In this document: positions 5,740 through 47,300 of the stretch, in pieces
Numbering within the stretch: position 1 is the stretch's first letter
How the letters are laid out: each line of letters opens with the position of its first letter
Assembly: GCF_003711515.1 (NCBI RefSeq)
Contig: NW_021167082.1
Coordinates: 815,310-879,309, forward strand
Origin: Sodiomyces alkalinus F11
Lineage: Eukaryota; Ascomycota; Sordariomycetes; Glomerellales; Plectosphaerellaceae
Length of the DNA: 64,000 bases
Reading direction: 5' to 3'
Program-made: the position numbers and the translations under genes
The notes under the pieces: model-generated
Seen by the model: the letters and a program-made list of their open reading frames with translations, nothing else
What the model was told of the DNA's origin: nothing
The model's database searches: none

Positions 5740-7900
5740 ATAGTCAGAGTTCTCCTAGCGAATAGGCGGCGACGGTACCGTATAAGCGTTTACCTGCCTT
5801 ATTTCTTATTCTTTCCTTAGCTCTTATTCTCGCCTTAGCTCTCGTTCTCGCCTCGGTTCTTATTCCCGCCTCGGTTCTTATTCCCGCCTCGGTTCTTATT
5901 CCCGCCTCGGTTCTTATTCCCGCCTCGGTTCTTATTCCCGCCTCGGTTCTTATTCCAGCCTCGGTTCACGTTCTCGCCTTAGTTCTCGTTCCTACCTCTT
6001 ATCTCGTATTCGTTCCCGGATATATCTAGCCTTTAGCTCTCTCTCTCCACGGTTACGGCGCTTCGTTCTATCTTCCGTATCACTTTCCGCGTAAGTGCCC
6101 TCTTTAGCTAAGATATTATAGATATAGAGAAGGATATTACCCCTATAGGCGGGGTTTCTATAATAACGTCTTCCTTTTCGGTAAAAATAATACTATTACC
6201 GGCGCCGGTAAGGGATTTATCGGCTATAGCGTTAATTCGAAAGAGTAGTATCCTATTATCGACTTTAAAACTAACCTTACCGAAAAAGGCACGGATAAGA
6301 TCTTTTAAGATAAAGACAGGCTCCGGTAAGCCTAAGCCTGCTAACTTATCTTCGACTTATACTAGTATTAGTAAGAAAGTATACTTTTATAGCTTAATAA
6401 AGGACTATATAGACGGTTTCCCGCCCTGTTAGGTAAGGAGAGGGAGGAAGAATAAACGGCCTATAGCTATTTTATCTACGACTTCGCGGTACGGTTCTCC
6501 TAGCTTCTAGTCAATCTTCTTATTCTAAAAGCCGTATATCCTAACACGCTAATAAAGCCTTTATATATACGCGTTATCGATATATACGGTTATAGCCTTA
6601 TCCCGGATATCTTAAAATAGAGTATTAGTAAAGAGCCGCGGGAAGTACCTTAAAGAGGTTATAAATAGTGCTAAGAAGGCTACCTAGGGCGATAGGGCCT
6701 TAGCTAGTTATACGAAAACGCTTTCCTCCTACTTAAGGACGGGCGCCTATAAGCTATCCTAGATATTATAAAAAGCCTTATAAAGAGTTATCCGATTAGC
6801 GCCTACTTCGTCGAATAATCTAGGTAGCCTTATAGCTAGTCCCTTATTAACTAGCTCGCCTAATACGCCTATACCGGCTAAATCGGCTATCTCGTTTCGG
6901 CCGCCTAATAAGGACGGCTATAACTATATTTTAAGGATATTCGCTCTAATAGAAATATAGTTTATAGCGTTATAAAACGTTTTAAAGCTAGGGATTAGGC
7001 CCTGTACTTTTAGTAGATTCGTTTCGAGTATATCTTATATCGCTATATTATATATATAGGTAAATAGAAATCTAAGATATATAGCCTCGCGGATACTATT
7101 ATAGTCCTCCTCGCTAACGGATAGCGCTAGACTTTAGACTAGCCAGATAGTCTTTATATTTATTAGGCGGCGGAGCTAATCCCGGCTATTAATAATCTTA
7201 TCCTATACTTAATATATCCTTATTAGGTATATAATAACTAATTCGTTATAGTATACCACGTTAATTTTTAGCTAGTTTCCGAGTCGTAGCCCGGGCTAAA
7301 GCCCGGCGAATAAGACTAATTTAACTAACGCCTTAATAACTTCCCTTTACTAGAGAAGCGCGGCGAAGTATTTCCGCTTAGAACTATTCCGGACATAAGC
7401 CTCCTAGCTCCGCTAGAGAGCGGTACTGTCCTTATCGTCCTAGGCTTTTAGGGCGTTCTGATATATCTCTCCGTCTGACTATAGTATCTTATAGGAGAAC
7501 CGGGTCGCTTCCGCTTACGCGAACTATTCTAGGCTCGGGCTACCTAGGTAATACTAGGGTATCTCTTGAAGCTTTTATAGGGACGTAGGCAGAGACGCTA
7601 TAATAGCACTAAGGGTCTCTTAAGTAATAGCCGTATTAATCTAGTAGTCCTAGATATTCGGGTTATAGCCGAACCGTCTAAAGTATTCGGCTAGAGATTT
7701 TATATATTTCGGGTCTATAATCTTACCGGAGTGCCAGCGGTCGCTAAGCGGGGAAAATCTAAGTAAAGGTAAGGGTACCTGTATAATAGTAATAATATAC
7801 CGATTCTATAAGGACGCTATAATCTATCTATTTCTTCCGTAATACTAATTATAGCTAAAAGTCTTAGAAGACTTAAATACGACGTTCTTAAGTTATAGGT
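5740..7900 (-). pseudogene. DUF3723 protein relic (Starship-type cargo)
   Basis: The minus-strand translation, reading through RIP stops, matches the conserved organisation I know for fungal DUF3723 proteins. It opens near 7,740 with DRWHSGKIIDPKYIKSLAEY, then a segment with FGYNPNI; SDGEIYQNALKA lies at about 7,476-7,440, LVKLVLFAGL around 7,320-7,290, and GLIPSFKTFYNAINYISIRA near 7,000-6,940. Stops sit where Gln or Trp would be expected. The charged C-terminal part contains the 18-bp repeat array. Function is unknown; in the literature DUF3723 genes are recurrent cargo of Starship giant transposons. No intact frame remains, so it is a pseudogene. Confidence 0.75.
5815..5994 (-). repeat. 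18-bp minisatellite, ten units, hexapeptide coding
   Basis: Ten consecutive 18-bp units run from 5815. The six central units are cctcggttcttattcccg or one base different; outer units diverge (ccttagctcttattctcg, cctcggttcacgttctcg). On the minus strand each unit reads Arg-Glu-stop-Glu-Pro-Arg, and outer units read Arg-Glu-Arg-Glu-Leu/Pro-Arg. The ancestral product therefore carried an Arg/Glu hexapeptide repeat in the C-terminal tail of the DUF3723 relic. The in-unit TAA is a RIP product fixed in neighbouring copies, so the array may have been homogenised or expanded after mutation. Confidence 0.8.
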
Positions 7901-8390
7901 ATACGGCTTAAAAAAAAGGGGGGGGAGGGGGCCGGCTACTTAAAATTAAAAGCGATTATAAAGGTCTAGGTATTCGCGCCTACGCGGCGCCCCGGCGCCT
8001 ATAACGGGCGAGTCGGAGGCGAGAATTAAAATAAAGTAAACTAGTAAAAGAAGAAAGTCTTACTCTCTTTTTTAAATAAAAGAATAAAGAGAAAGGAAAA
8101 TAAAGGAATAAAAAGAAAAAGGACGTCCTTTTATCTTTTATAGAGCTATAAGTTTATTTATATTTAAAGTCTAAAGAGAGCTGGCTCGGTTATCTTATAT
8201 ATCCCGGTCCTAGTCCTATTCCTTATTCCTAGGCCGATAAGCGCCTAGCCCTCTCTCGTTACTCGTAATACCTTCGCTAGTAGCCTAGCTAAGCTTAGTA
8301 TCGGGCGCTCCTAGAATAGGCGGTCCCTATCTTATAGAATACCTTACTCCCTATTAAGCGTTAGACGCCCTAGGAGATAGTAAGGTCTAG
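7900..8390. other. Divergent spacer between two relics
   Basis: About 0.5 kb between the minus-strand DUF3723 relic and the plus-strand unknown relic. It holds a G-rich run (7918-7932) and purine-rich sequence (about 8040-8130). It may have been a shared promoter. No gene is seen. Confidence 0.4.
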
Positions 8391-8393
8391 GTC

Positions 8394-10850
8394 GTGATCG
8401 CTATCGGAGGTAATACGAAGAGAAAATATCTCTCCGAGAAACTCTCCGTCTCCTACCTTCTAGATAAAGCGGACGGGATCGCCCTTCGGCCTATCCCGAA
8501 GATAGAAGTATTTTTAATAGACTATAAGCTTTACCGGGTTAGCGAGCCGTTATATATCCGCGCCGGGCTAAGACCTAGTAACAGGGCCGTCCATAAACTT
8601 AGGTATACGGTATAGTATACTACCTAAATTACTTTTAGCCTATACTATAAGCTCCTAACTCCATTTAGCGCTATTATCTTACTTTTTATTATAGACCTTA
8701 GCGGTATTTATCCTATTATAGACTTCCTGGCTACCTAGCTTCGAGCCGCTATAATTAAGACGCTCCTATACTACTTACGGCTTTTCCTCGTTAAAGAGGG
8801 CGGTACTTATACGAATTAAAACGCTTTACGCTCCCTTCTTATATCTAAGATACTTATAAACCTTCCCGTAAACGACCCTCTCCGGGCCTATACGGCGGCC
8901 GATATATAAAAGCTAATACAGGACTACCTATATCTTAGCGAGTTATATACTTTACGGGATTTAACCCCCTTCTTTTACGACGACTTACTATTACTTACTA
9001 GCGATACTTACGCGGACCGGTAAAGAATAGGCGTGTATTTCTCGGCTATATACTAGAAGGCCTTATTCAGAGTAGTGTTAAGGTAGTACGCTAAAAGCCC
9101 GTCCGTCCTTATCGAGTTCTATTATCTATCTAGGTTAGCGAATCTTATACCGGAAGACCTATAAGACGGCGTAGTCGAATTTATACGAGCTACTAGTAGA
9201 AAAGCCCTAGATCGGACCGCCGTTATAGCCTTAGCCCTCTCCGTCGATATATACCCCCCCGGAATATATAGTAAGTAGGACCCTAAACGATATCCTATAA
9301 TCCGCTAATATATCGTGTAGCTTTCCTGTTAGAGAAGGTATTCTCCTAGCTATATAATAAGCTTATAACTAGTATCGAAAGTATAGTAAAGTATAGAAGC
9401 TTCTTTATAGGAGTTAAGGAGAGGTTTATTAGTATTACCTCTAATAACCTTACTTATTAGAAGGGGTCCGCCGAAGCTTATCTAGAGATATTAAGAGCTT
9501 ATAAGACTATATAGGAATCTATACCTTATACTAATAGGTGCTAGGTATATATAGGTATTACGACCTACACGCTTTACTATCGATATAGACTCTACGGTGC
9601 CTATACTATTAAGTACGCCTTATCGCTTAATAGCTAGTCGATAACTATCCCCTCCTACCCCTTTTATTAGCGAGAAAATAGGATTCCGTTTATAAGTAAG
9701 CGCCTAATAGCTAGGGAGCGGGTCTTAATTCTTAGAGGGTTCTCTCCTAACGAGGTTATAGCGTTGCTTATAGACTTATAGCGCTCTGTTAGCTTAACGG
9801 GTCTACCTTTTCGCCGACTCTTTAATAGGGTTATCGTATCTGATATCGGTAAGCAGTAAGCCCTAATACCGTTTATAGTATACGCCGAGCTAATCCGCGA
9901 AGGTATCTTCTTCTAACTTACTATTTTCCTAGAGGAGTAGAATCTCGAGGACTATAAATATTATATTACCTAAGTCCGTCGCTCGAAGCGCTTCTAGTCG
10001 GGGTCTATTAGCTTCGGTAAAGGGCTTAGGTGGTAAGTTCGGGACGTATAGCGTATTAATAACGTTAAGGCGATACTCCGAGTAAGGGGTAAGGTCTTAT
10101 ATACCTTTAAGCTAAAGTAAGCCTAGACGTACTTATCTCCTAACTTAGACCTACCCCGTAAGCCGGTATACAGGATACCCTCTAGTATTAATTCTCCGCG
10201 CAGCTCCTTTACCGTATTATATAGCGACTATCCTTAGAACTATAACGTCCTAGTCTAGGTTAATAGGGGCCTAAGCAGCTAAGCGCTTATAGAAGTTATA
10301 ATAAAACGGTTTATTTCCTACCTATTCTACCTAGAGCTTATTTCTGCCCCGGATTTCTACCGGTCGCCCTAGATATACCGGGTTATCCTACGATATTATC
10401 TCCCGCTAGGGCCTACGCTTATAGATCTCTTACTTTGGCTATACCACCGTTAGGCTTTTATTGTGTATCGTGGTAATAAGAAGGAATACCGTAGGGTCTT
10501 AGTTTATAGGCAGAGCGATATAGAAGACGCCCGGAACTAGGTAGCTTTCGCGAGAGAGTTTAAGGTAGCCGTGTTATCTCCTTTATCTGCTATAGACGTG
10601 AAGATTAAGAGTCCGGGATATAGGGCGGGGTATAGGAATAGCGAAAGCGTTAGTAACTCGCCGTACCTACTATATAGCCTTATCCGTGATTAGGGCTTAG
10701 ATTATATATTTAGAAGCCGCGATTACCGCTACGCTCCTTATCCGACCCTATTATACGCTTATAGTTAGAATATAAGAGGATTACTCGCTATCTTACGGAA
10801 GAATAAGAATATAGTAGTATAAGAACTAGAAAGGTTATCTAAGGCGCTTT
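8394..10850 (+). pseudogene. Long unknown protein relic
   Basis: Forward frames read as protein over most of 2.4 kb with RIP-type stops. The first part is open from 8394 to 8615. Clear later segments include RLIARERVLILRGFSPNEVI (about 9,700-9,760), GLPFRRLFNRVIVSDIGKQ (about 9,800-9,858), RFISYLFYLELISAPDFYR (about 10,308-10,365) and LIRDxGLDYIFRSRDYRYAP (about 10,680-10,740). I verified the frame in two blocks (about 9,640-9,916 and 10,308-10,820) and less strictly elsewhere. I do not recognise the family. It is divergent from the DUF3723 relic and lies in a probable Starship, so it may be another cargo family. Confidence 0.5.
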
Positions 10851-12480
10851 AAGTAATAATAGAGTAGAAATAGCAGGTAATAAGTATATAATATTCAGTA
10901 TCTAATCCTCTATTTATAAAGAGCACCTTTCCTTCTAACCCGGCCTTAGTCGGAGAAGCACTACTTAACTAACGATAGTAAAGCCCTTTTACGCTAATAT
11001 AATACCGGTCTCGGTTATATAATACATAAGTCGTTAGCGGGAGTCCCCTCCCTGCTTTTACCGGAGAACCTCGGAGTTAGAGTATAAGACGCTACTAGGG
11101 GACCCTTAGGTAGGAGTATAGATAGTAGGGCGATATTTCATAGTCGAATAATCTTAGGAGGGTATTTTCTAGGGGTTACTCGGAATTCTTAGGCACTTAC
11201 TTTACGCGTAATGTTACCTAGTCGGTATAGTTACCCGAGTCGGAGAGGAATAAGGGTAGCGATATTAGCGGTATACTTAGCGAGGGCGGCGTCTCCACGC
11301 TCCGGAATAAGGTCTCAGTCAGTCCGGGGCTACACGACGAGTATAACGAAAAAGCACCTAAGGCGGCCGCTAGGTTATAAGGCGCCGCTATAGCTAAGGC
11401 GAGGGCCGTGCCGGGATTATTACCGGGCGATAATACGGCCCGGTAGGTATCCCGAGATATAATAGTCTTAAAGTGCTCGGGGCCTAATATTTTCTAAGGC
11501 GGTATAAGGTTATCGGCTAGGCTTTTAAGAAAACCGTGTTAGGTTTCGTATCCCTTAAGCTCGCCGTTTAGACCGCGCACTACTATAGCTAGCGTAGTAT
11601 TATAGTATTTACGAAAAGTGTCTGATTTTTTATAGATACCGCCTTTCTGATTCTTAAAGTCCTTGGCAAAGTCTTTATTACTCGCTCTACGGACTATTTC
11701 AGCGAGTTAAGTGGACGTCTAATATTATATAATATAATATATAGACTATAGGAAATAAGAAACAAATAAAAGGGCGTAAGCCGGTTCTAGTATTATATCC
11801 TTATAATACACTCCTTTATTTAAAAGTCGGGACCGAAATATAGTCGCCTTTATACCCGTAGGCTATAGAATTCTAGCCGCTAAGCAGTTATTCGGGATAA
11901 TACTTTTTTCGAATCGTCTCTGGTATCTACACGCCGCCGGTTAGTCGGTCGGTCGGGGGATACCCACTTATCCCGGATAGCCGTGTAGGGCACTAGCGCC
12001 GAACCCCGATACCTTTATCCAGGGCCTATTATTTAGGGTTAAAGATAACCTATTTTTAATAGCCGCCGACCTTATAAGCGGCTATTCCTATATCGATAAT
12101 CTATAATAAATACTCCCTAATAGAGTAAAGCGGCTATCGCGAGTATATTTTAGATCCTAGACGCTTCTATATTACGGGCAGGGCGCTAATTATAGTCCGT
12201 TATTAGATTTAAAATTCTACGTCTAAGGTCTATCAAGATAGATAATTCTTAAGAAATAGCCTATAGATATTCCTATTTTCTATTATTAAAGCCCTTTCCT
12301 TCCTCTAGCCTTATATACTCGTCTATACTCGCGTATACACCTATATACACCCGCGTATAATATCTTATATAATACACACGCCTATATAGGTATACGTAAT
12401 CCTATATACCTCCTAAGCTATAAAGACTATCTTCTACTATCTTATTCTTTTCTATAGCCTCCTTATTCTTCGTATACTAA
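10850..12480. other. RIP-degraded DNA, no assignable gene
   Basis: The frame of the preceding relic may continue for several hundred bases (a 60-codon open run at 11211-11393), but no motif is recognised. Around 12,310-12,420 lies a TA-rich stretch with recurring tatatac-like words. Confidence 0.4.
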
Positions 12481-13700
12481 GCGAGGTCCTACTACCTTAG
12501 GTCCTTTACGTACGGGTTTTCCTAACCCGAATATTCGGCTATACTATGCTAGTCCCTCGAGGACTAGGAAATAGCGCTACTTATTAGCAGGCCGCTATAA
12601 TTCTTACGTACGTAACGGCGAATATCGTTATCCTCTTCGTCCCCTTTAAGCCGTTCCCTACTATTAGGGAGGTCGAGAAAAGGGTAGGTATAGCCGTAGT
12701 CGTTAACTTAGCCCCGCTCTTAATCGTCGGCCGGACGAATACTATCGCCTAGTACTATAATATACCTATAGCCGTAACCTACGTCGCCTATTCTTAGATT
12801 AGCAGAGCCGCTATTATACAGGCCTTTATTCACTCCTCTATAATCCTCTCCCTCCGGCCTCGGGGAATTCTCTTAATCGTCTATAAATCCTTAGTACGTC
12901 GTAGAATATACCCCTCGGAGTATAAAAACCCTGCCGGCTAATAGTGGCAGACTATCAGCATAATACTAATTACCCTAGTAATAACTTTACCCTTCAGCCG
13001 GGCACGGATCGGTAAGTACTTCCCTATTACGTATTTTTCGGTCGTCATAGTAGTCTTTACCGGCACGGGCTAGCACGTCTACACGCTTCCGTCTATCCTA
13101 GCGAGAGTGCTATTTACTATATCTTACTCCGTTTAGACGATTTCGATAATCGCCTGGGTTATACGATAGGCACGCCCGTACGCCACTATTAGAGTAATGG
13201 ACCTTAAAGTAAGATATAACATCGCGGTCGTTAAAGTCCATACCGAAAACACTATCCACGCCTCTCCGGGCAGCTACTTCTACGTCTACTTTCCTATACC
13301 CTTATAGAGGTCTATCTTCCCTATATATAACAGTTGTCCTATAAAGCCGTTATAGTATAGGCTAGGTAAGCTTTAACGGGCCGACGGCGTTTAGAATATA
13401 ACCTTCCTTATAGCTTACTAGGGGAGGTACTCGGACTACCTAGATAGGCTAAAAGAGGGGATATCTCTAAGGCTTTATAGACCTTATAACCGGGACCAAA
13501 AACTGGATAAGTACGAAAGGGTGGTTCTAGTCGCGTAAGGGCTAGGCATAGCGGGGGTTTTACCGTATACCCTATACCTCGCCGAGCGGAAAGATCATGA
13601 TAACGGGATTAAGAGAGCTATTTATTAGTTATATTAAAAAGAGAGATCCCTGTTAAGAGATACCGAAGGGGCGTCTTCGCGGTAATAGGGAAGGACGTTA
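12480..13700 (+). pseudogene. Ferric reductase (FRE-type) relic
   Basis: The forward translation resembles fungal ferric reductases of the NOX/FRE superfamily. Membrane part: VVVNLAPLLIVGRTNTIA (GRTN motif at about 12,728-12,740), then VTYVAYS(stop)ISRAAIIQAF, equivalent to the heme-ligand helix, with Tyr where the family has His, as RIP would cause. FAD-binding part: HASPGSYFYVYFP at about 13,257-13,297. NAD(P)-binding part: ERVVLVA(stop)GLGIAGVLPY at about 13,518-13,567, then LYLAERKDHDN. Intact members reduce Fe3+ chelates at the plasma membrane; this copy is inactivated by many stops. Ferric reductases are recurrent Starship cargo. Confidence 0.75.
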
Positions 13701-14780
13701 GGTAGAAGAAAGGAAGTATAGAATTAGAGGAGGTCTTTAGCTAAGGTTAAGCTCTTTTACGATAAGACGTAAAGGCTTAATCTACTATAGGCCGTTAAGG
13801 ATACCGTATAGAAAGAATAGGTGATCGGTAATTTCCGGATACTATAAAGTCTTAATCCGAAGAACATAAGCGTATTAGCCCCCGATTCGTAAGGATTACT
13901 AATTTCGCTTATACCCCTACCTAGAAAACCCTTATCGTGTAGTATCTTTATCTTAACAGAAGGAACCCCGAGCGGGTAACTCCGTTTAAGGTATCGGATT
14001 ACTAATAATACCTTTCCCTAACGCCGGAAAAGCTAGATATAGTAGAGAGAATAATATCGAGAATCCGAGAATAGTATTCTTAGTTATAAGGTGATATAGT
14101 AGTTATATATAGGTGCCGCACGGCCGGCTTATATTTACGCCTTAAGACACTAATAAATTTTTAGGCTATAGTAGTCCGGACTTTAATACGCGAATAAGGG
14201 AGGGCGTTATCGGATCTATAAGGGGGTAGTAGTTTATTATATTCTTAGAACCCGAATTCTAGCCCCGAGGAAATGCTATTAGCGGAGGTGGTTATAAGCC
14301 GCTTCCGTTAAGTAAGGCGAGGCTATCGAGTAATAGCGGATATATAACGTCTACCTCGAGCTTTTAGGAGTCTAGCTAACTAGTCTAAAGGATTATATAA
14401 TAGCCTTAGTAGTACTAAGAATATAGGCGTCTAGCCTATACCTATAAATAGGTTCCTTTTTTTCCTTATTTACCCTCTCTAGTAACTAGGCTCTTAGAAT
14501 TCGATTCTTCTTTTCGCTTTCTAATATTAAATCCAAATAAAGAATCTCTATTTAAATTATTAGGTTTAAAATAACATTCTAGACTAAGTAGCTAGGAATT
14601 ATAATCTTAAATCTAATAACTATAGTAATATATTAGATATTAGTTTAGGTTTTCTTACAGAGCTTATTATACAATTAGCTATATTCTTCGTCTTCCTAAG
14701 ATATATAGAGTTCGGTAAATAATCGCTACTTAATAGTAAGGAATATTACTTCTATTACTCTTTATAAATAAACTCGATTA
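13700..14780. other. RIP-degraded DNA, no assignable gene
   Basis: Stop-rich sequence between the ferric reductase and BRCT relics. The last 200 bp are AT-rich. Nothing recognisable. Confidence 0.4.
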
Positions 14781-15670
14781 TTATACCTAAGAAAATAACT
14801 AAGGAAACCCTAAGCCAGGACCCTAGCCCTTTACAGGGTCTTATTATTACCTTAAGTAGTATTTCTCCTTATAAGGAGGACTCTTTAAAGGAAAAAATCC
14901 TTAATCTTGGCGGGGCTTTTTCGGAGAAAATCACGGGAAATATAACCTATCTAGTAGCTTCTAAGAAAGACTATAATCATCGGACTCCTAAGGTAATAGA
15001 GGCCCTAAAGGAAGGCGTTCTTATCATTAATCACGACTAGCTTAAGGAGTATACCTAAAAAGGACTAAAAATACCCGAGACGGACTTTTTATATAAGAAT
15101 AAGAAGGGAGAAAACTTAGATAATAAAGAATAAGCGAGCCTAGCACGCTACCGTACGCTTTTAGGAAATAAGCAGAAGGACTCGGGCCCTTTATATAACT
15201 ATATTATTACTTTAAGTAGTAAATCCCCTTATATAAAGGCTTATCGCTTAAAGAAAGATATTATTAAGCTTAGCGGGGTTTTTTCTAAAGATATCACGGA
15301 GATTATAACCTATCTAGCGGCTTCTAAGAATAACTATTATCGCCCGACTATTAAGGTCGAGAAGGCTAAAAATAAAAGAAAGGTTCTTATTATTAATCAC
15401 GGCTAGCTTAAGTAGTGTATTAGGAAAGGGAAGAGGGTGTTTAAGAAGACGTTTTTATATAAGGAAAAAGGCGGAGAAGAATCCGGTAAGATAGAAGACT
15501 TAGACGATATAGAAGACTTGGAAGACTCGGAAGACTCGGATAACGCCGAAGACTCGGATAACGTGAAAGACTCGGATAACGCGGAAGACTTAAAAGAGAG
15601 AGAAGACTCGGATAAGGGACAGGAATCGGGTAAGGAAAAGGAATCGGACGATAAAGAATAGATAAGCCTA
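14780..15670 (+). pseudogene. Tandem BRCT-domain protein relic
   Basis: Two homologous segments read as BRCT domains. The first (about 14,835-15,060) contains LNLGGAFSEKITGNITYLVA, then KVIEALKEGVLIINHD-stop-LKEY. The second (about 15,195-15,415) contains KLSGVFSKDITEIITYLAAS and KVLIINHG-stop-LK. In both, the stop is at the position of the conserved BRCT Trp, exactly the TGG-to-TAG change RIP makes. A highly acidic Asp/Ser/Glu repeat (EDSDNAEDSDN-like, 15,500-15,640) follows in an open frame. BRCT domains bind phosphopeptides in DNA-damage proteins. Identity beyond BRCT is unclear: no PARP catalytic or WGR motif could be recognised downstream. Confidence 0.6.
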
Positions 15671-17070
15671 GCACGCTACTACACGCCCTCGGTAAGTAAG
15701 AAGACTTCCAGCAAAAATACTATAATTAAGAAAGGTAGGGACCGCTTAGGCCTAGGGGGTCTAAGGGCCGCCTAAACGCTAGGGATTACGGACCCGGAGG
15801 TATTTAATACCCGCTAAATACTAAAAAGCCTTTTACTTAGTCCCCTTAGTCCTTTATAAAACTCTAAAGATTCTAATAAGATAACTCTTATAACAGTATA
15901 TACGGACTATAAGAAAGGAAAGCTCGTAGAGGGGATAATCGTGGCGGTTATTTATAAGGAATAACTATTAGTCTCGGCGCCTAGTAAGTTTAAGGAGTAT
16001 CCTTAGCTCGAACACGGTTTCCTTCTTCGTGGCTCTAACTATATAGTAGAAAAAGCCGGATTCTTAAGCGGAGGCGGTAAAAGACTCTTATTAAGTATTA
16101 AAGATAGCCTTTACGGGGTTCCGCTTAAAGATCTTAGGATTATCCTAGTAGCTATTAATAAGGATTAGAGTTAAACCTCGATTCTATTATATATAGAGGG
16201 TCGTAGATATCTTAAGCTATTCTCCCGGTCGGAACTAAACCGGGCTTATAGGAGTAGCACGGGCGATTAGATTATAGCTTATCGTAGGCGGATACTTAGC
16301 TTAAGAATATAAAAGGATCTAGGAAGGAGTTATAAGTCGTAGATAAGGTCCGAAGCGTAGTATACGGAGGATAGTATTAGTAGTCTCGGTTTAACTCTTT
16401 ATTCCTAAGAATAAATAGGGTATATTTTTATATTTCTCTATATAAAATAATATATTAATTAGTTAGATACTCTATATACCTAGGTCGTATACTATAAAGG
16501 CTACTAGCTACGGCTCCCTATTACTCTACCTACTAATAGCTTTAATAAGCGGTGATTTACTTATCCTATTCTTCCGCCCTAAACTAAGCCGTTACCGCTT
16601 CCCTATAAAGTATAATAGCCTCCGCCCTATATAGATCGCGGATATCCACCTTAGTCTTAACCTATATTATATTATACGTTATACTCCTATTCCTACGCTA
16701 AAAGTCGTGTAACCTCTTTATATCCTAGTAGGTTATCTAGAGTAAGGAGACCCCTCCCTAATTACGGAGAGACCTAGAGGTTTCCGTAACTATTTACTAT
16801 ATAGAATCCCGTGGCTTCTATTACCCTAACTACGCGTAGGGTTATTAATCGGGCTTAAATATAACGGACCTAGGACGAATTCAGCTTCTTCCTATACTAG
16901 ACCTTAGTAAGTAATAGCGTCCTACCGGCGGTGGGAGGTTTAACGTTTACCTCTATCGGTTCGTGTCTCTGGATATGCCCGTCCTTAGTCAACACGCGCG
17001 CTGCGTCCGTGGCTATGCATACGCTAGAAGAGAGCCCTTGGTCTGGTAATACTACACTCTTAGTAATTAT
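15670..17070 (+). other. Possible downstream extension of the BRCT relic
   Basis: The forward frame continues to look protein-like in places (for example KGKLVEGIIVAVIYKE near 15,918 and GFLSGGGKRLLLSIKDSLYG near 16,060-16,120), but I recognise no family and stops are frequent. Confidence 0.3.
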
Positions 17071-19780: not shown

Positions 19781-19786
19781 TTCTTT

Positions 19787-34070: not shown

Positions 34071-34104
34071 GTGCAGGCCAGGCTATCTATTAGTCTATTA
34101 TTTA

Positions 34105-35790: not shown

Positions 35791-36250
35791 TTAGATAGTT
35801 TCTGATAGACCGGCTGGATATTTATTTGAATTAGATAGTGGTCCTTCATTAAAATCGGATGATTTATATACTGTTACATCGCAAAGAATATAGGAGGCTA
35901 TAGCTAATTCTCGTACTGTAGTACTAAAAAATGTTTCTAATCGTCCTTTTGAATTATTAAAGGATAATACAAATAATAGTAATAATAATCGTCCTGTAGA
36001 ACTATGAAATAATCCAGATAATTGAAAACCTGTTAATACAGATAGTAATCCTTCTATAGATCCAAGTTCAGATAATAGAAAACTTATTAGTGAAGACAAT
36101 ATTCGTCCTTCTATAGAAGATTCAAAAGATATAGAAATGCAAAATAGAGATAATGTAGAATCGCAAAATAGAGAAAACGCAAGACTTAGATCTAGTGATT
36201 TATATCTATCTACGAGCTAGTCTAGTATCTAATAGAGCTATAATCTAATC
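35791..36250 (+). other. AT-rich island retaining CpA, Asn/Ser-rich reading frame
   Basis: Composition changes abruptly: A-rich on the top strand, with many ca dinucleotides (acatcgcaaag, caaaatagag) that RIP removed elsewhere. One forward frame is almost open from about 35,800 to 36,220 and encodes Asn/Ser/Asp-rich sequence: ELDSGPSLKSDDLYTVTSQR, KDNTNNSNNNRPVEL, NPSIDPSSDNRKLISEDNIR, NRENARLRSSDLY. The opposite strand has a 102-codon open run (35791-36099), probably a shadow. It joins the inverted repeat at 36.3 kb and may be part of the same element. Family unknown. Confidence 0.45.
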
Positions 36251-36299
36251 TGTATAGAAACCGTTATATTAAATTCGATTTTTTTTTCTGTATAGAAGA

Positions 36300-36680
36300 G
36301 AAATATATAATTTTATAATTCTTATCCGATAACGTTATCTCTATCCACCTATTCTTAATATAAAATACAAAAGCAAGGACGCCTTGTTAATCATAGGCGG
36401 TATATCTCGATAGTTATCACCATCAGACAAACCATCGGAAATACAAGAAAAACAACTCCCGCCGCTTTCCCTTAGCGCTAACTAGCAGGTAGAAGACCTA
36501 AGCCGGACCGACGAACGGGAAAGAACCAGTATAGTCTCGGTATAGCTAGTCCACGGAGGTGTAGATTTTATAAGCAGAAGTTAAAGATCTACGCTAGCAG
36601 GTTACCTCGCTTTAGTAGCAGAATACGGGCTATTATTAGGAGATAAGCCAGAAGAATCGCTTTATCATAGATCTCGCTAA
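36300..36680 (+). repeat. Left arm of a 380-bp inverted repeat
   Basis: Matches the reverse complement of about 37,770-38,130. Shared landmarks are tatctctatccacctat, caaggacgcc, atatctcgatagttat, gtatagtctcggtatagctagtccacgga and ttactcgctttagtagcagaat-like sequence. In this sense the arm encodes QGRLVNHxxYISIVITIRxT, repeated on the opposite strand at 38,060. Confidence 0.85.
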
Positions 36681-37770
36681 AACTATTAGAGCGGCTTGTA
36701 TAGCCTATCAGAAAGAGAATACGGCATAGGATCGCCTATCTTTATATTCTTCGACTAGGTCGGAAGGATTCGAAGGAATCCGCGTTTATAGCGAGTTCGA
36801 CTTTAACGACGAATACTAAATAGAAGGCTAGTGCTAGCCCGGGCGCCTTGGGCGCGATGGACCAATATTCTTATTCCCTCCGCGTGTATCTACCGGTGCC
36901 CCACGTAGGGTCTAGGAGCGTTAAGCAATCCCGCACTATTTAACGAGTCTGGACGAAAGCTGCATTCGTTAGTGCAATTCTCTTTAGTGCAGATCGTATT
37001 TAGAGGATTAGTAATGGAGATATGCGAATAGTGAGATGTATTTTAAGAGGAGTGTTGAGTGATGGTGTTAAGGCAATTTGTGTATGGGTACAGGTACTTA
37101 CGAAATAGTTTTATATACGTGGTTATATCGCGACCCGCAGGGTCCCTGTTGTCTTATGAGCTAGTTATATTGCGTTGTATACGCGCTATCCTTTAAAACC
37201 CCGGTAGAGGTGTAGGGGTAGGTGGCGTATTATGCCCGTATTGGGTTAAGCGCGTCCGGCAGTTCGGTACGGCTGCGTTAGGGTAGGTTAGCCCGTACAC
37301 AAACTATGTATTATAACTGGCTAAAGACAACAGGGGGCTCCTTTGGGTCTTATTACAACGACATACATACTAAATATACCGATTTCATAAGTACCTATAT
37401 CCATAATAAAAACACTTCCCTCCACACCACCGTTCAACATCAAAAATCAGCAGCCTCCCTATTTCTCTCAATACACTAACGCAACCGAGAAAGCATCGTA
37501 CGAGCTGTATACGGTAGAGGGGATCTTACTGAATCTAGTTATAAATCCGCTACCCTACGGGCGTACGAATCCCCTTCTTCCGGGCCTTAGACCTCTAAGG
37601 TGTTACCTGTTATTGATAAGCAAGCTGGACTTAACATAGCGTAATCTCCTAGCGGAGAGTTTAAGAGCGTTATCTACTATCTGACGATAGGACTATCCTA
37701 CGAAACGACGAAGACCCTGTAGCTCTAGCCTTAATTTCTGAAGAGCTCTAAAAATGCCACTCTATAATAA
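36680..37770. other. Spacer inside the inverted repeat
   Basis: About 1.1 kb. It holds less mutated DNA near 36,880-37,100 and TA-biased DNA elsewhere. No gene is recognised. Confidence 0.4.
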
Positions 37771-38130
37771 AGCGATTCTTACGGCTTATCTCACGACGAT
37801 TCTGCTACTAAAGCAAGGTAACCTACTAGCGCAGATCTTGAACTTCTGCTTATAAGATCTGTATCTCCGTGGACTAGCTATGCCGAGACTATACTGATTT
37901 TGTCCCTTTTATCCGTCCGGCTTAGGGCTTCCTGCTTACTAGTTAGCGCTAAGAGGAAGCGGTGGGAGTGTTTTTCCTCGTATTTATAACGGTCTCCCTA
38001 ATAGTAATAACTATCGAGATATACGGCCCGTGATTAACTAGGCGTCCTTGACTTTTTACTTTATAATAAAATATAGGTGGATAGAGATATAGGATAAGAA
38101 TTATATCGTTATATATTATTCTTGTATATA
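37770..38130 (-). repeat. Right arm of the 380-bp inverted repeat
   Basis: Reverse complement of the 36,300-36,680 arm. The minus-strand open run at 37949-38188 covers the arm and contains QGRLVNHGPYISIVITIRET. It abuts R1 copy 2 at 38,150. Confidence 0.85.
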
Positions 38131-38149
38131 GGAAATAAAATTCAGATTT

Positions 38150-38630
38150 AATGCTAGAGCTGCCACGTTTAAGATTAATGCTAATCACGTAACAGAAATA
38201 AAAGCCTAATCTTCGATTATAAATAATACGCAGAATCTAAACTGACCGCGTAGCCGCCGCGAAGAATCCAGGTCTTAACTTTCGAGTTCTATTTAAATTC
38301 TGTCGGAAGCGTCCACCCACTTTCCCGAGCAGGTAGGTAGAGAAGGCGATAGTAATAAGAGACGTCTCACTCAATAGCACGTGAATATGGACGCACGTAG
38401 ACCAAGGCCTATACCTCCACTTAGCGCGCTTTGCCGTTGCTAGCGCCCTTAGTGTACTATAATACTGGGCCGCGCTTAGTATATGCCTCTGATTAAACAC
38501 CTCTTCCCGGAACCACATAAAGTTATCGTAAATAAATTTCTGCGAGACTGTATTTACTAAACCTTTATAAAGCACCCGATACGACGTAAATTATAAGAGG
38601 ACGGGAAGGTTTAAAGTCGAGAAGTAGAAT
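38150..38630 (+). repeat. Dispersed repeat family R1, copy 2
   Basis: Same orientation as 19,787-20,275, about 18.4 kb away. A 112-codon minus-strand open run (38237-38575) spans it. The equivalent frame is less open in copy 1, so coding potential is doubtful. Confidence 0.75.
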
Positions 38631-40260
38631 AGAAAGATAGAATTTAAACTCGTACGGGAGCTAGCTACTCTATACCACCGGTTATACGCTCTGCTACTTA
38701 CCCTGGATTTATAGACCCGGACTAATAACCCACTTCCCCCTCCGACAGCCGCCTTAATCCTCGGTATAGCTAGCCGTCACCGTCTAAAAGACCGTCAGGG
38801 TGGAGACGAGCGCGCTCGACACCAGGGAGGCCGACACCTCGGGCGCCTTACTAATATAAAAGAGCGAGCTAGAGAGGGGATCGCCTGACCCGGTCGGTTC
38901 CCTCGACGTCTTAGCCGGGGGAGCCCCGGAGCCTGTTAGAGGTGGTAACTCGTACGACCCTATACTTAAAAGTGTTACGGATACTGGCGGAGATAGGGGG
39001 GTCGAAGAGGTTAGACCGCCCGGTAGGGAAGGCGGCGGGCTAGGCTCCTCGAAACTCGTCGAGGCGTCTATCGCTAAGGTTAGCTTAGCGGAGAGGAAGG
39101 TAGAGGATAAGCGAGTTACGGTGATTAGGGTAGTACTATTCCGAACCGACTCTAAAACGTAGCTAATATCGGCTTTTATCTTATAGGGTATAAAGGGATT
39201 AACTTAGCTATAGGTGATTATAGCATAGGAATATATTAGCGTTATACCCTCGTAATGCCTATAACGGGTTTAGTGTGTATTCCTGGCGTATATTAGCATA
39301 GATAATCCGGATCCTACTATATAATATATATATCGCTATTAGGCACCCCCGGCGGCATTATAAACCTAGTAATACTATAGCTAGAATAGGGATAAACTTC
39401 GAATAAGTAACGGATAGGCAGAAAGTTAGGGTCCTTAAAGCGTAAGCTTGCCTCGTAGCGCGTTTGCCTAGGCCCGTCGATTCTAGAACCTGGTTAGTGC
39501 GATAATAAGGAGAGCACGGCGATATAGTATAGCTATACGCCGTCCGGGAGGGAGAGTAAAGGGTTTAGCTCTTACTCTAGTTCCAAACTCACACGGTAGA
39601 TATAACCGAGCTGCCCGCCTTAATAGTTAGGACGGGACTCGATATATAGATATAAGGGCCCGTGTGTAGGGGGAAGGCGCCGATATAAAATAAGGCTAGC
39701 GGGAGAATAAGAGACTTTATAGTTCCTTAGAGTATATTCGTTATAGATATTAATAAAAAGAGCTAGCTCCTTTATAGACGTAAGGAGTTATCCAAAGTCG
39801 GGATATCCTGTAGACTAAATACGCGGCCCGGCGCTCGGAGCGGCTCCCGAGTCTATAATATCACGGATAAGGGAAGGCCGATAAGGAAATTTACAAGAGA
39901 AGATTGAAAATCGGAAATCTAAATTAAAAGGGAGATAAAATCCATCCCCTCTCGCGCTTTTATAGCTACTTAATAGACGCTTACTTAAAGCTTGCCCCTC
40001 TATCTACCGCCGGCGGCGCGCTAATACGGCTATTATACGAGACGAAGTCGGAAATTATCTAAAAGTGAGCGCGATAGCTTTATAAGAAGCCGTTAAACGG
40101 AATAAGCTTATAGTCACTAGCGGTGATATATAAGATATACACACATATTCCATGACTAGGCCGCTAGAACTATTGGTAATAATAGCTCCCTCGCCTCCTA
40201 ATAGCATTATTACCGCCGGCGCTGTACTTACCACTACGACTACCCAGGAGCCGATAATCC
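38630..40260. other. RIP-degraded DNA with a Ser/Pro-rich minus-strand stretch
   Basis: Between about 39,180 and 38,750 the minus strand reads as Ser/Thr/Pro-rich sequence (for example TRLSSTFLSAKLTLAIDAST and LPPLTGSGAPPAKTSREPTG), typical of a disordered region. The rest is stop-rich. Confidence 0.35.
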
Positions 40261-40765
40261 ACGTCGACTTAAGCGCCCTCGAGGCTATAAACTACGGCTA
40301 GACTGCGTACTAGGTAGCCCTCTAGACCCCTCCGAGCTAGGCCCGTTTTCCCGAACTCGACTTTAGCTTACCGATAGCCCCCGCCACCCCTCTAACCAGC
40401 GGCTCGCGTACCGAGCATATATATTAAGAGATTATACAGTAAGCCGGGTAACGGACTTAGTTCTAACCCTATGCTAGTATTCTACCCGGTACGTGCTAAC
40501 GGAAATCTAGCTACCTTAAAGCTATATCCTCGCGGCTAGAACGGATAGAGGCCGCTATAGATAGGACGGCCGTGTCGCTCGAAGATCTTAGGGCGCTAGT
40601 AGACGGCGTCTTAATAAACGTGGCCGGCTGGATAAAGACGCTGCAAGAAAACGTCACGAAGCTTAGGCGATATATAGGTTTATTTATAAGGGAGATAGTA
40701 GAGTATTTGTTTAGTAATACGATATTGGCTGATATTAGGATACTAGGTGTAAGTGACGATTAGGA
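40260..40765 (+). repeat. Dispersed repeat R2, copy 2, with gag-like helical frame
   Basis: Homologous to 33,640-34,070. The forward frame from 40572 to 40763 is open and reads SLEDLRALVDGVLINVAGWI, then a segment rich in Leu/Ile and charges ending with VEYLF. Together with upstream PELDFSLPIAPATPLTSGSR this resembles N-terminal regions of fungal gag-like or transposon ORF1 proteins, but the assignment is tentative. Confidence 0.55.
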
Positions 40766-41727
40766 TCGGGCTAGGGTATCTGTTTCGTAGCCCCGAATCT
40801 TAATTTACGGCCGTCGGCGTCTAACCGTTCGGGGTATATAATATCCCGCCCTCCCCCCTACCCTTTTTTAGCTCCTAGCCGCGAAGTGACGTAACGTGAC
40901 GTGCTATGCCCCTACGTAAACACGTTTGCTATTATACCTATTATGCCGGAAAAGGAGCTCCCGCCTACCCCGTAGAAACTAAAGGAGACCGGGTACGCCC
41001 ACGCCCACTAGCGGTGCTCCGCACAAACCGGATCCAGGGATACTAAGGCCAGCCTAGCTAAGCGTCGCCGACAAAGGGGCCGATAGACACGAGGGTTCTT
41101 ATCTCCTCCCTGCAGAGGGAGAAGGACGCCTTATAACGGGAAGTCTTGGCCTTATATAAAAAATAAGCCTCCGATTAGCGCCGGCTGGACTTATTGCATT
41201 AACAGAACGCGCACCTTTATAGTATCGTGCAGGAATAGGACGACTAGGTAGTAGCTATTGCCCGCACTATTATAGAAGTCTTCGATAAGTATAAGGCGTC
41301 GATACGGCGGCGCGGGAGCGAAGAGGATAGTGATACCGGTAAGACCGATTCCGGCGACGGGCACGGATAGCGTTATCCGTATTTATAGCGCTTTTAGCGA
41401 TAGCAATAGCAGTAGCGAGTATTCTATATAGCCGGCTACCCGCCTGTATCTCTGTTTCTCGACTCCTAGTCTCTTCACGTATCCCTTCAAAGTATAGTCT
41501 AGGGGCCGTGAGTGACCCTTAGGTAGACGTCGCATTCCGATGGTAAGTCGAACTGGCATGGGGCCTTGGCCCTTGCTACGTTATCCCGACCCCCTGGTCG
41601 TTTTCTATTACGACCATAGAGCCCCTTAGCGATTATCGCTAGTAAACCGTGGCATCTAGTCAGCAACCAATGGATAGCTGTGGGCAGAGGGGAGACTGAT
41701 CTTGGGTTTAGGACCTTGCGGTCGATG

Positions 41728-41768
41728 GACCCACTTAAGGGGTGGGAAATCCACTACCTAAGTGGGTC
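41728..41768. repeat. 10-bp perfect inverted repeat (hairpin)
   Basis: gacccactta at 41728-41737 pairs with taagtgggtc at 41759-41768 around a 21-base loop, in a little-mutated island. It could be part of an LTR or a terminator-like structure. Role unknown. Confidence 0.6.
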
Positions 41769-44365
41769 TATCTAAATAGGCTCCCGTTGGCTCGGGAGGA
41801 GTGTTGCACACCTCCACAGGCCTTAAGGGGATTTCGCGTCAATTGTCGAGTTGCCAGAAAACTATCTCTTATCTGACAAACGTCTTCGCCTGATTACAAT
41901 ATAAACAGAATCATTATTAGCATTAGTGTGATCGGTCTCTCGACGACCGACGACGTCCTTTAGTTATTTATCTATTATTTCTCAGCCCTCGCGCCTTGCT
42001 CCTAGCGACGATGTCTCGAAAATAGTTCGGGTTGATTATAATAACTTAGAGCGGATAACGGAAGCAGTCGGGGCTTAGAGGCAGTGGAATAGTAACACGA
42101 AGGACTTATGGTTGCTTTAGGCCGTATATAAATAATCCCGACCGCGTTCCTATCTCTTATAGCTACTACGATAGTCTAGAGAGATTCTGTAAGTTCCCCC
42201 CTCCTTACCAGCCGTGGAGCTCGTGCTAGCGTGCGGGTCCGTAACTAACCCACTTCCCCCCCTCCCTGCCCTAGGAGATCGCTTTACTTATCCACCTTCT
42301 ATTTTTCCATTATTCCATCACTGCATCACTTTATTATTTCACTCCACTTATTCCCACGCCGGATACCGAGGCCTGTATTTCTGTAGTGGAAAAGGAGCGT
42401 ATTTACTTTACTAAGACGAAAATAATTCGCTAAACGTAACTTACTTCCCTTAAAAAGATCGTTAGCTTATTTAAGGAGGAGAATTCGACTCCTCTGCTAG
42501 TAGCGATAAAAAGCAGGTATAAAGTAGCCCGAACCCTTTTAAAAGATATTCGTTAATAACTATGCATTAAGGTCTTCTTATACGCTTTTACGCTGCTAAT
42601 AACCAAGTTAGAGACTACTAAGGCGCTAAATGGCTTTATTAAAAGGCTTTAACGATGGTGGTTAAGCGTCGGGCACTGCATGCACCTCAGTGAGCTTATC
42701 CCCGAGCTCATTAATAAGTTGCTAACTATAGGTACGTAGTCACGGGCATGTTTGGTGCAGAAATTCATTATTTCATAGTGCGTTTTAAGACGGCTCATAA
42801 ACGCAGATATTCGGATTCCTTGATAGGAGCGGGGGGCTTACTCTTGCCGAACCCGAATAAGCGTATGAGAAACTCGGGAACTGAAAAAGGGTAAATGCTA
42901 GCTCTGGACTCGGAGACTAAGGAGAGCGAAGAAGGCTATAAGAGCGAAGAGAGAGAGGAAGCTGAGTAACCAGATTAGTTCGAGGGTAGGTGCTGACTAT
43001 AACGACTATATATGAATTGCACTGACCGTTATGTAGCGCTAATAAACGGAAATGCTTACTAACTTAACACCCTGGATATAATCCGCGTTCTGACTATAAG
43101 TAAAGCTGTTCCGATATTGACTATTCCTTACTATTAAGGAGTTAAACCGTTTATCACATTACGGGTTCCCGAGAAGATAGCAATACAGCTAATAATAGGT
43201 CGTAAATAGCTTTTATAGCTACTTCCTATTAGTTAACCAATTGACTGTCTATTTCTTGTTTGTTCTCGCTAAACTATCCTAGCCTTGTATAATCCGTAGC
43301 ACACGAATTTTAGCCCCGTCGTCCAAAGTATAATGACCAGAGACCCTCTAAAATCTATCCCAACTATAACCATATATTCATCATTATTGTCGTGGATATA
43401 CAAAGAGTTCTTGGAAGCAATGCGCATGTCCATAATTACCATAACGTCTTTTATCGGCTAGACTATATCGAGATCACTATAAGGTCTAACTTAGCTCTAA
43501 GCATTACTTCCGGTCTAGCGGCGCTTTAGCCTTAATAAATTATTAGCGCCGGGTCCTCTCGCACCTCTTGCTCGTATTTTTTGATAGTCTTGTCTCTAGA
43601 AGAGTTTTTAACGCGGATCTTTTTTATCCCCTTTAGCCTGTGCTCGACTATGCTCCTTAGGAGTGATTTTGGTGGTGTCGGGTGTAGTTCGCGGCTAGGT
43701 GCAGGGCGAACTGAGATGATATATTATAGTTAGTGACTCGGGCATAAGAATTACGGAATACTCAGTACCTACTATCACGTTATTAACTCTCTGGAGATGG
43801 ATTTAATGTCTGACGATAAACCCCGTATCGGACTGGATAAAATGTGGGATGATGTACAGCCCTACTGGTACTCGGTCTTAGTGACGGCACTGAGCGGATA
43901 GAAGCAGATGGAAATGGAAGTGGAAAATGAAAATAAAAATGGAAGTGGAAAATAGCAGAGCTTTACTAGCAGGATAGGGGTTAAAGAGATATCTAACCCC
44001 TGAAGGTGAACTAGGCATATCGGGTGGCCACCTGATATGGCATAGCTTAGCCCTGCGTCTAGAGCAGGAGACATAGACCGCTTGGATCGCAAAGACAAGT
44101 GATACCTATAATGACTCGGGTATGTCTGCTCGGATCATATTCATTAAGCCTATCCGAGCGCCCGCATAGCTTATACCATTCCTACCCTATAGTTACCTTG
44201 TTGTTACATGTTCCACTTGCACTATGAGCCTGTCCACCGAACGTAGAGACTTAGAAGAGAGGCGAAAGCCACCCCTCTTTTCTCCCACTATAACGCAATC
44301 TTTATCAGGGGGGTCTCCTAAGACCACTACGCAGATCCCAGATATTACTGCTAATAAGCGGCGCA

Positions 44366-44475
44366 CTCCTTTCTCTTTTCCTTCTCTCTCTCTTTTCTTT
44401 TATTTCCTTTCTCTTTCTTCTATTTTCTTTTTCTTCTTCTTTTTCTTTTTCTATTTCTTTTTTCCCTCCCTCTCG
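44366..44475. repeat. Polypyrimidine (CTT-rich) tract
   Basis: About 110 bases, almost exclusively c and t on the top strand. It makes a spurious Ser/Phe-rich open frame. Confidence 0.85.
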
Positions 44476-44849
44476 GTATTATTTAGTACCCGTCGTTATA
44501 GTTTCTCGTGATCCAGGATATACTAAGTCTCTTCCCCTTAGGCACTCGTAGTATGGTAACCCTAAACCCGGATATAGTATTCAGGGAAATCAGGAGGTAG
44601 CGGCCTCTCTAACGCTTAGTCTTAAAATCTAATCCCTGAGAGATTTACACCTACGACGTATCTCTGGTAACAAAGCTCCTTTCATCTATCTACTTAATCT
44701 TATATTTCTATGTGCGAGGTACCTAGGCATAACTCTTTACGCTATACTATAGATCTCATTGCCTGTATAAACCCTATATCCTTCTATACGTCGTCCGGCT
44801 CTAAGACGTAGGGCATACTATCCTCGTTATAGTCAGGGAACTCAGCTTC

Positions 44850-47300
44850 CTTATTGCTGACGAGTTTCGACTTTTTCCTCGGCCGAGTAGCAGATATATC
44901 CTGATCTGTCCCATATTTCTTTACCGTAGCTTATACGTTAATATGCATAGAGATAGCTCCGGGGATCTTCCCTTTACGGTGGGTATTCCTTAAGTGCTAT
45001 ATCCACTGAGGTTCGTCCTCGATTAGGTCGCCCTATGCTCCCTGCCGCTGGTATTCGGGGTATTAGAACGGCTTTCTAAAGTATCCGACGTTAATATAAG
45101 AGCGCTTAAAATGTAGATTAAACCCACTAGACGTGAAATTCTTCTTGTAGAGGGCGTAGTATGCCGTTTTTTCTGATCGTGGCCGTAGGTCTGGGGCATA
45201 AAGCTTACCGTGGCAACGTTCTACGTGTGCACTCTATGCCGATAGTCCCTCCGGGATTAAGTGGCTCTCTCCGCGACGACGGCACTCTAGGCAGAAGAAC
45301 GGTTGGTTAAACGTTTTTATATGCTTATTTCGGACGTGCCTAGTAAGACTGGGTCGATCTCTAAATAAGCCGTAACTAAAGAGATATTACGATCGATCTG
45401 TTTGTTTTTTCTGTTCCGAGCTCGATTCCTGAAGGTTGAATAAAGACTCGTCCCTATATAGGTAGGCAAGAAGCCTGTCGGCAAAGAGCTGTCCGTTACT
45501 AGTAAACATCGACTTAGCTAGTATCGTTACCGAATTACTGCTTACCTGATATTACTTTAAGGATTTTTAGTGTTAATATAGTATAGGTGCTAAGTCGGTT
45601 TTCCCTTAGCACGAAGCCGATCCACTTCGGCAAAATATTCCCTTCTTATCTCGTCGAGTCTTAATTCTTATAACCGTTCCTTAATTGCTCGCACCTTAGC
45701 GTAAATTCGATTTACCTCTCTAGAGCTACGGTTTAGGAGACCCTGGACTTTCTAACGTAGCGTGATAATATCGTTTCGGGACTCGAACTTATCTAGATCC
45801 TCCTTCGTAACATAGATAGGAGCTCGCGTGTCCCGACCAGTGAATATATTATATAGCTTGGTTAAATTATCACGATTCTCACTAGCTAGCTCCCTAAATC
45901 TAATACCTATTAGGTCTGCTTTCTGATATACTGGCTAGTAGCTTACTAGAAAGACGTTGTCGGTGTTCCTAAAAATCTAACAACGCGACTCGGTGGTAAG
46001 ATAACCTAGCTTATACTATTAGTAGCAGCTATACTAGTATAATAACGAGCACTCTTACTCGCTAGCCGACCGCTAGCCCTAACTCGAACTAAGTAGGGGC
46101 GGAAACGTTTATAAACGCCCGTAACTATTAAGACGCGGTTCTATATCCGTAGGTACTGTTTATATTTAACGGAATAATACACTTGTTTATCATTTTAGGT
46201 TTCTATTACAGCGGGACATAGTCGATACCGTCTTCTATCGGGCCCGGGCGCAGCACCTAAGCAGGCGCTATAAACCCTGCCTTAAAGGCATCGTCCGTAA
46301 TGGCTCTACAAACCAGCTTTCGCAACAGGTATATCTGCCAGTATAATGCCTCTAAGATATCAAACTCGACTCTATTTATTAAAATTAGCGGCGTACGTTA
46401 TAGGTAAGGAAGATAGTATAATATACTTCTCACGTTAATCGCGGTGTATGCGGTTTATGCCTAACTTGACTTAGTGGACTAGAATATTAGCTATGGGAGA
46501 AATCTTTATTAGATCGCGGGTATCGCGAAACCAGCCTAGTCTAACGTCTCTGTATTTCATGTTCAGCAGACTAGCTGTCCTCTAGCCACCTATGCTACCA
46601 AGCAAAATCACCGTATTAAAATCCAATCTATCCGACGGGCTGCATAGGATATCCGATGCCCTACTCCACAATATCTTAAGGAGCTTAATAATACCCTTAT
46701 CTGTTATCTCTATCTTCTTAAAGGTTTAATAGCGCGTGAGTCTATATTTATTGGCGATCTCTGCTAGTTTCTTTGAGTATATTAATAGTTACGCTAAATA
46801 CCGGTCTACCTAAAGGACCTTACCTCGCTAACCAGGCCTATAGGACCGGATACTCTACCGCTACGGGTTATATACCTAAGTATAAACGTGTGTGCTTTAT
46901 CCGGATTTTATAGGCGTTTTGGCTCTATAATATATTTATCGGTAGCGTGTACTAAGGCGGCCTATATATCCTAAAGCGTGGCTGTAGACGTAATTATTCG
47001 TACCTCTTTATACTCCTCTAGCCTAAGATAGATTTAGCGTATAGTGGTCGACTCGATATAGACTTTAAGGAAGGAAATCGCCACGCTTATATTATCGTTC
47101 GAAGCTCCTAGGAATTTCACCCAGAATTCATTTTTATTAATGCCCGCGCGCTCCGCAAAGCTTTATCCCGTTAGTTAATATACCCAGGCCCCTATCTAAG
47201 GCTGAACTTACGAGGTCTATTCGTTCCAGAGCCTTTCGCGTAGTGCTTTAGCCTTTATAGATATACTAGGCTATAGTTCTTCGGATATCCGGGTCTAATT
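44850..47300 (-). pseudogene. Tyrosine recombinase-like (DUF3435/FluG-type) relic with C2H2-like motifs, copy 3
   Basis: Minus-strand order: AERAGINKNEFWVKFLG and ISVAISFLKVYIES (47,160-47,060, N-terminal helical region); RLDFNTVILLGSIGG(stop)RTAS then LLNMKYRDVRLGWF (46,640-46,530), resembling the first conserved Arg box of tyrosine recombinases; a C-box-like NVFLVSY (about 45,960); TRAPIYVTKEDLDKFESRND (about 45,825-45,765) and a coiled coil (VNRIYAKVRAIKERL). Finally, SLTRHVRNKHIKTFNQPFFC and SAHVERCHGKLY (about 45,345-45,195) look like two C2H2 zinc fingers. Stops fit TGG-to-TAG and CAA/CAG changes. The organisation matches long fungal DUF3435/FluG-type proteins. Confidence 0.65.

Follow-up and report, generated by a model that had tools for sequence, protein, structure and literature searches.

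How many Starships, the giant transposons of the Pezizomycotina with a DUF3435 tyrosine recombinase as captain, stand behind a block of fungal DNA in which repeat-induced point mutation (RIP) has closed the reading frames? This question is raised by a stretch of 64,000 nucleotides from Sodiomyces alkalinus F11 (C4:815310-879309; genome of 43.4 Mb in 22 contigs), which is called the window here. A sequence-only reading had described it as carrying the carcass of one or more Starships, with DUF3723, ferric reductase and DUF3435 relics in a RIP-hit block. The analysis presented here suggests that the stretch probably holds the ruins of at least two Starship-type elements, embedded in a large RIPped compartment. 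One element would have left a cassette of DUF3723, patatin-like (PLP) and ferric reductase genes at 6.3-13.8 kb, and the other element or elements two DUF3435 captain-type recombinase genes.

RIP landscape

A strong RIP signature extends from base 1 of the window to ~47.5 kb. Here, the composite RIP index (CRI) is positive in all 47 1-kb intervals of positions 1-47,000 and exceeds 0.3 in 45 of them, with values of 0.25-1.83 per kb in the RIPped part. From 48,001 to 64,000 it is negative in 15 of 16 intervals. The hallmarks of RIP are present, namely an excess of TpA, a depletion of CpA and TpG and transition-biased differences among copies, and none of the relics has kept an open frame, as expected from the RIP-hit block with Starship-type relics proposed earlier. 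That proposal let the block start at 5.7 kb, which is not the case: the RIPped compartment runs left to at least C4:715310, 100 kb past the window, and includes GC-normal islands.

A three-state dinucleotide segmentation, whose states were trained on chosen stretches at 5-16, 21-46 and 49-63 kb, divides the RIPped part into a heavy and a moderate stratum (Table 1). The moderate stratum (16917-47525) is interrupted by three short stretches of heavy RIP and by one in the non-RIP state. The shift in RIP intensity at 16.9 kb separates the cassette from the captains. Their position in different strata speaks for at least two elements with separate histories; the earlier wording of one or more Starships holds for the type of the relics, and its number shifts toward two or more.

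The DUF3723-PLP-ferric reductase cassette

The DUF3723 relic, previously placed at 5.7-7.9 kb, was recovered by Pfam (PF12520, 7481-6927 on the minus strand, E 3.8e-19) with 13 internal stops, and homology to other copies extends over 7511-6282. The DUF3723 copy of C18 recovers it at 88.6 bits against a null maximum of 30.8; with the DUF3723 gene of C11 (L009) as query, it was not above chance. An array of 18-bp tandem repeats (5775-6026) adjoins the relic, and a Trypan_PARP match falling on this array was rejected as low complexity.

For the ferric reductase, the PLP gene and the captain piece at 23.9 kb Pfam was uninformative, and they were therefore aligned to relatives instead. The ferric reductase relic, read before at 12.5-13.7 kb, gave no Pfam match even at E up to 10, and in plain tblastn, where stops are penalised, its score of 21.9 bits did not stand out from chance (null maximum 26.6). 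With stops read as X, the alignment of 12597-13808 to L042, an intact ferric reductase encoded in this genome (PF01794, E 8.7e-28), reached 45.8 bits, the best of 100 dinucleotide shuffles being 30.8. Decayed relatives lie at C18:169-170.5 kb, C4:26.5 kb and C5:945 kb.

Between both relics sits a further decayed gene, which recurs as a neighbor of DUF3723 at C18:160-164 kb and C4:736-741 kb. A profile built from the three copies gave a single match at E ≤ 10 among 7,992 scored candidates, the fungal protein P0003 with the patatin domain PF01734 (E 1.7e-6). Window 8931-9287 aligns directly to P0003 with 40.4 bits (best of 100 shuffles 26.9), and P0003 is also matched by the C18 and C4 copies. 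The three-copy profile was needed, as the C18 copy used as a single query gave no match. The patatin domain has 11 matches in the genome, with none in the window and none on C18. The gene is accordingly called a putative PLP relic by its similarity to P0003, the patatin domain itself being undetected.

The cassette shares 26-31% amino-acid identity with the copies elsewhere and is thus a distant relative of them. No long flanking repeats were found around it, and a DNA-level search of the genome gave, at its sensitivity, no match to 5.5-17.8 kb outside this locus. The Pfam scans covered two of the six frames at 15.0-20.5 kb and ended at 47.9 kb. At 1-15 kb, six-frame scans found no transposon or reverse-transcriptase domain, which is weak evidence because the same scans missed the reductase and PLP relics. 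Overall, the families could be recovered, DUF3723 and DUF3435 by Pfam and the ferric reductase by alignment to a relative, and the relics were not found to lie each in a retroelement of its own. A Prokineticin match from the Pfam search of the relics (E 0.32, minus strand) was taken as chance, and a BRCT match near 14.8 kb (E 0.00093) lies below its cut-off.

The captain relics and the right border

Three DUF3435 pieces had been counted in the sequence-only reading. DUF3435 is present; two of the pieces match one protein, P0002 from Verticillium longisporum, itself a DUF3435 protein, and the third, at 44.9-47.3 kb, is only a probable case. PF11917 (DUF3435) matches 22339-21932 on the minus strand (E 1e-12) and the match extends to 21724 in another frame, 22348-21724 being 55-65% identical to P0002. 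The second piece, 23918-24371 on the plus strand, gave no DUF3435 match in Pfam. Because the pieces match different parts of P0002, one gene is likely, and the simplest reading of 21.7-22.3 and 23.9-24.4 kb would be a single captain-type gene (captain 1) that was split and partly inverted; they may also be fragments of two copies. A repeat end lies between them (23505-23641), and its relative on C18 marks one boundary of a 6.6-kb segment, which the C18 and C4 copies carry in opposite orientation. Since this relative bounds an inverted segment, an inversion of captain 1 around the repeat is plausible. None of the DUF3435 loci L001-L005, L007 and L008 matched the window at E 0.001.

The piece at 45-47 kb is a probable, not a certain, second captain (captain 2). 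Reading short pieces, two matches to PF11917 below its curated cut-off were obtained on the minus strand, one to profile positions 5-60 (46689-46522, E 0.11) and one to positions 226-341 (45967-45602, E 0.013), which are colinear with a spacing that roughly fits the profile. Between them, a profile built in this analysis gives a third weak match (46334-46176, E 0.018), and a weak zinc-finger match (45356-45297, E 0.1) follows the DUF3435 matches. Read whole in six frames, 44.1-47.9 kb gave nothing at E 0.1.

Captain 2 faces inward at 0.8-1 kb from the right RIP border, which is a possible, not a proven, end of its element. A truncated 5S rRNA gene begins 0.2-0.4 kb beyond this border. Among the listed non-self matches to 44.8-48.3 kb, 29 of 34 start exactly at the 5S cut (47,895), and one, on C2, crosses the junction: there, the same 223-bp segment abuts another 5S gene, with an identical cut point. 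This segment may itself be an end of a different 5S-targeting element. It is probable that the element of captain 2 targeted the 5S rRNA gene. The missing 5S piece was not found in C4:715-879 kb, and a genome-wide search for the 5' pattern of 5S (up to 3 mismatches), which a strongly RIPped piece would escape, gave one site, on C9, continuing as 5S.

Table 1. Features of the window, with positions counted from its first base.
Feature	Position	Strand	Basis
Heavily RIPped stratum with DUF3723-PLP-ferric reductase cassette	440..16916		three-state segmentation
DUF3723 relic	6282..7511	-	PF12520 at 7481-6927 and homology to C18:163365-164471
Putative PLP gene relic	8322..10753	+	matched pieces 8322-9275, 9863-10141, 10244-10753
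Ferric reductase relic	12597..13808	+	alignment with intact ferric reductase L042
Moderately RIPped stratum with both captain relics	16917..47525		segmentation
Captain 1 core (P0002 residues 224-413)	21724..22348	-	PF11917 and identity to P0002
Repeat end between captain 1 pieces	23505..23641		82% identity to C18:158021-158156
Captain 1 N-terminal part (P0002 residues 3-132)	23918..24371	+	57-67% identity to P0002
Probable captain 2 relic, facing inward	45297..46689	-	weak PF11917, own profile, zinc finger
Right RIP border	47526..47664		47,526 by segmentation; 47,664 by two-state change point
223-bp segment outside the RIP border	47672..47894	+	86% match to C2:6024298-6024637, spanning the 5S junction
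5S rRNA gene without first 27 nt	47895..47987	+	RF00001, 48.6 bits; full copy compared

Related copies elsewhere in the genome

C18 and C5 share 92% identical DNA that starts at C18:146807, with the onset of RIP on C18 at ~146.9 kb and a captain relic just inside the start, pointing inward. Here, a RIPped element present in both places was mapped to the same captain-side terminus, C18:146807 (L004/L036) and C5:917204 (L005); on C5, the 368 bases before this end were examined. Ahead of the C5 tip (917204), part of the tip is repeated in inverted orientation.

Further inside, C18:151.6-167.0 kb and C4:734.1-749.0 kb, the latter 66-81 kb left of the window, are 88-92% identical in rearranged pieces, and transitions prevail among the differences between copies (503 to 61, 450 to 46, 125 to 16 and 222 to 16). 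Two copies of one element carry the 6.6-kb segment in opposite orientation, at C18:151.56-158.16 kb and C4:742.67-749.01 kb. On C18, a captain, PLP, DUF3723 and ferric reductase occur together within ~23 kb, and the DUF3723-PLP pair is found at three places (window, C18 and C4). At three of five DUF3723 loci a DUF3435 match lies within 16 kb, for which the chance is ~1.4e-6 genome-wide and 3.9e-4 if these loci are limited to a compartment assumed to make up 15% of the genome. Without the window, this applies to two of four loci (1.6e-4 genome-wide, 0.0068 in the 15% compartment). Proximity by chance is unlikely even in the assumed compartment.

Two other arrangements were observed. On C18:146.8-230.0 kb (L004, L007, L008), read at its two ends up to 170 kb and from 226 kb on, two DUF3435 relics face each other, both near a change between non-RIPped and RIPped DNA, the right change being taken from the last 300-bp intervals examined. 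On C11:322-336 kb (L002, L009, L015), DUF3435 and DUF3723 genes are separated by ~12 kb; the DNA there is mostly un-RIPped, stops are few or absent, and this may be a younger element.

Origin of the block

The wreck of at least two elements is supported by the presence of captain-type relics together with DUF3723, PLP and ferric reductase relics in one region, and by the inward-facing captain 2 at the right RIP border next to the truncated 5S gene. It is further supported by the recurrence of the DUF3723-PLP pair, the proximity of DUF3435, the C18/C5 terminus and the transition-biased differences. The PLP relic, the right border by the truncated 5S gene and the RIP change at 16.9 kb had all been missed in the sequence-only reading.

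From the relics, the RIP strata, the RIPped copies elsewhere, the terminus on C18/C5 and the truncated 5S gene at the border, all of which were observed, we infer element limits, a pairing of captains with cargo and an order of events as follows. A tyrosine-recombinase captain would have integrated each element at its target site, which for captain 2 was probably a 5S rRNA gene. After integration, further copies would have arisen in the genome, and RIP would have introduced C-to-T changes into the duplicated copies until no reading frame was left. Other repeats would then have inserted, and beside one of these captain 1 may have broken in two, with part of it turned around.

Several observations weigh against this scheme. 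In the one genome analysed, neither a left border, a direct repeat, a terminal inverted repeat nor an empty site was found for any element of the window, and the tip motif of C18/C5 is absent from it. The assignment of captain 2 draws on weak matches and is qualified to that extent. A counterpart 5S piece was found neither in C4:715-879 kb nor by the genome-wide pattern, and the 5S junction may stem from another, older element, as the 223-bp segment lies outside the RIP border. Also, both strata could reflect uneven RIP within one element.

A single Starship might instead run left from the truncated 5S gene at 47.9 kb, having captain 2 as its captain and the rest, including captain 1, as cargo or later insertions. 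Captain 2 as the outermost relic, directed inward from the border, would fit this, and larger Verticillium Starships are described in the excerpt of PMC12289983 as often holding several recombinase genes. It is nevertheless unlikely given the change of RIP intensity at 16.9 kb, the resemblance of the cassette to C18/C4 elements without most of the remaining block, and the extension of the RIPped compartment 100 kb further left with GC-normal islands. A general graveyard, in which solo DUF3435 genes gathered independently of a DUF3723-PLP pair, and both independently of a ferric reductase pseudogene, in an AT-rich, perhaps centromeric compartment, would agree with solo DUF3435 genes being commoner than captains (PMC12134995, in the part consulted), with a DUF3435 relic on C10 that is RIPped over only ~2.4-3 kb of the 3.35 kb seen, with the frequent other repeats in the block, with two of five DUF3723 loci lying away from any DUF3435 match and with one of three other decayed ferric reductase relatives (C4:26.5 kb) having neither DUF3723 nor DUF3435 nearby, yet it is improbable, since the same genes are associated repeatedly across several loci and a captain-side terminus was mapped at C18/C5.

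Other genes and repeats in and beside the block

Between the captains, two relics of regulatory and defence-related genes were found. A nearly full-length NDT80/PhoG DNA-binding domain is matched at 32829-32296 on the minus strand (E 7.9e-14); stop-free relatives exist on C9 and C1, and a DNA stretch at the C1 gene is 69% identical to the window over ~290 bp. At ~30993-30381 on the minus strand lies a relic of a QDE-2-type Argonaute (best match Neurospora QDE-2, E 5.4e-11), in which PAZ, linker 2 and the last part of Piwi are spread over three frames and most of Piwi is missing; one of these three frames gave no match when searched. It shares 64% identity over 44 residues with a stop-free Argonaute on C9. 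Each of these relics may have been cargo of a Starship or an independent duplication that RIP struck. A composite, 5S-targeting Starship that had two captains and carried the NDT80/PhoG regulator and the Argonaute before RIP appears rather improbable. If true, a giant transposon would have acquired part of the genome-defence machinery of its own host; in open-licence PubMed Central, no paper combining Starship, captain and Argonaute was found, and a looser search there gave one paper, on a rust fungus.

At 36278-38141, nested inverted repeats of ~0.39 kb bound a 1.86-kb unit, probably a DNA transposon, and looser inverted repeats occur at 25393-27280. The right flank (48294-60600) is GC-rich, and, as judged from translations read by eye, its open frames include candidates for a transporter, a P450, SRP54 and a P-type ATPase.

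Comparison with known systems

Captain position, nesting and RIP of Starships have already been described (PMC12257634, PMC12289983, PMC11905480, PMC12134995; all drawn on here in excerpts). Like a Starship, the window has captain-type relics, captain 1 being firm and captain 2 weak, and DUF3723, ferric reductase and PLP, which are listed as prevalent in Starships (PMC12134995, citing Gluck-Thaler 2022), are all present in it. The same excerpt gives these genes as absent from the Gaeumannomyces elements. The C18/C5 element shares with Starships the captain-side terminus and the inward captain. In contrast to described Starships, the RIPped block keeps no intact gene, and no pair of ends, no direct repeats and no empty site could be demonstrated.

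Members of the Osiris group (Enterprise family) in Aspergillus fumigatus insert in 5S rDNA and fragment it, according to the excerpt of PMC12153272. The window shares with them the truncated 5S gene at the border with an inward captain relic; it differs in that no second 5S fragment or direct repeat was found and a 223-bp segment separates RIP border and 5S gene. Here, the truncated 5S gene offers a concrete site at which an empty allele can be sought.

Element-wide RIP, as in the block, is described for type A elements of Gaeumannomyces tritici (PMC11905480) and for Limos in Fusarium falciforme (PMC12257634). The G. tritici elements have an element-average CRI of 0.2-0.3, in comparison to the 0.25-1.83 per kb of the block. 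For Verticillium dahliae, in turn, most transposable elements in Starship regions are reported without RIP signature (PMC12289983). Despite heavy RIP, a decayed captain and accessory genes were still recognizable in the window through the comparison of decayed copies. Gene annotation is expected to miss such relics, and counts of intact captains would underestimate Starships in RIP-active fungi. The RIP-degraded Starship is thus an already known kind, to which the window adds a strongly decayed example.

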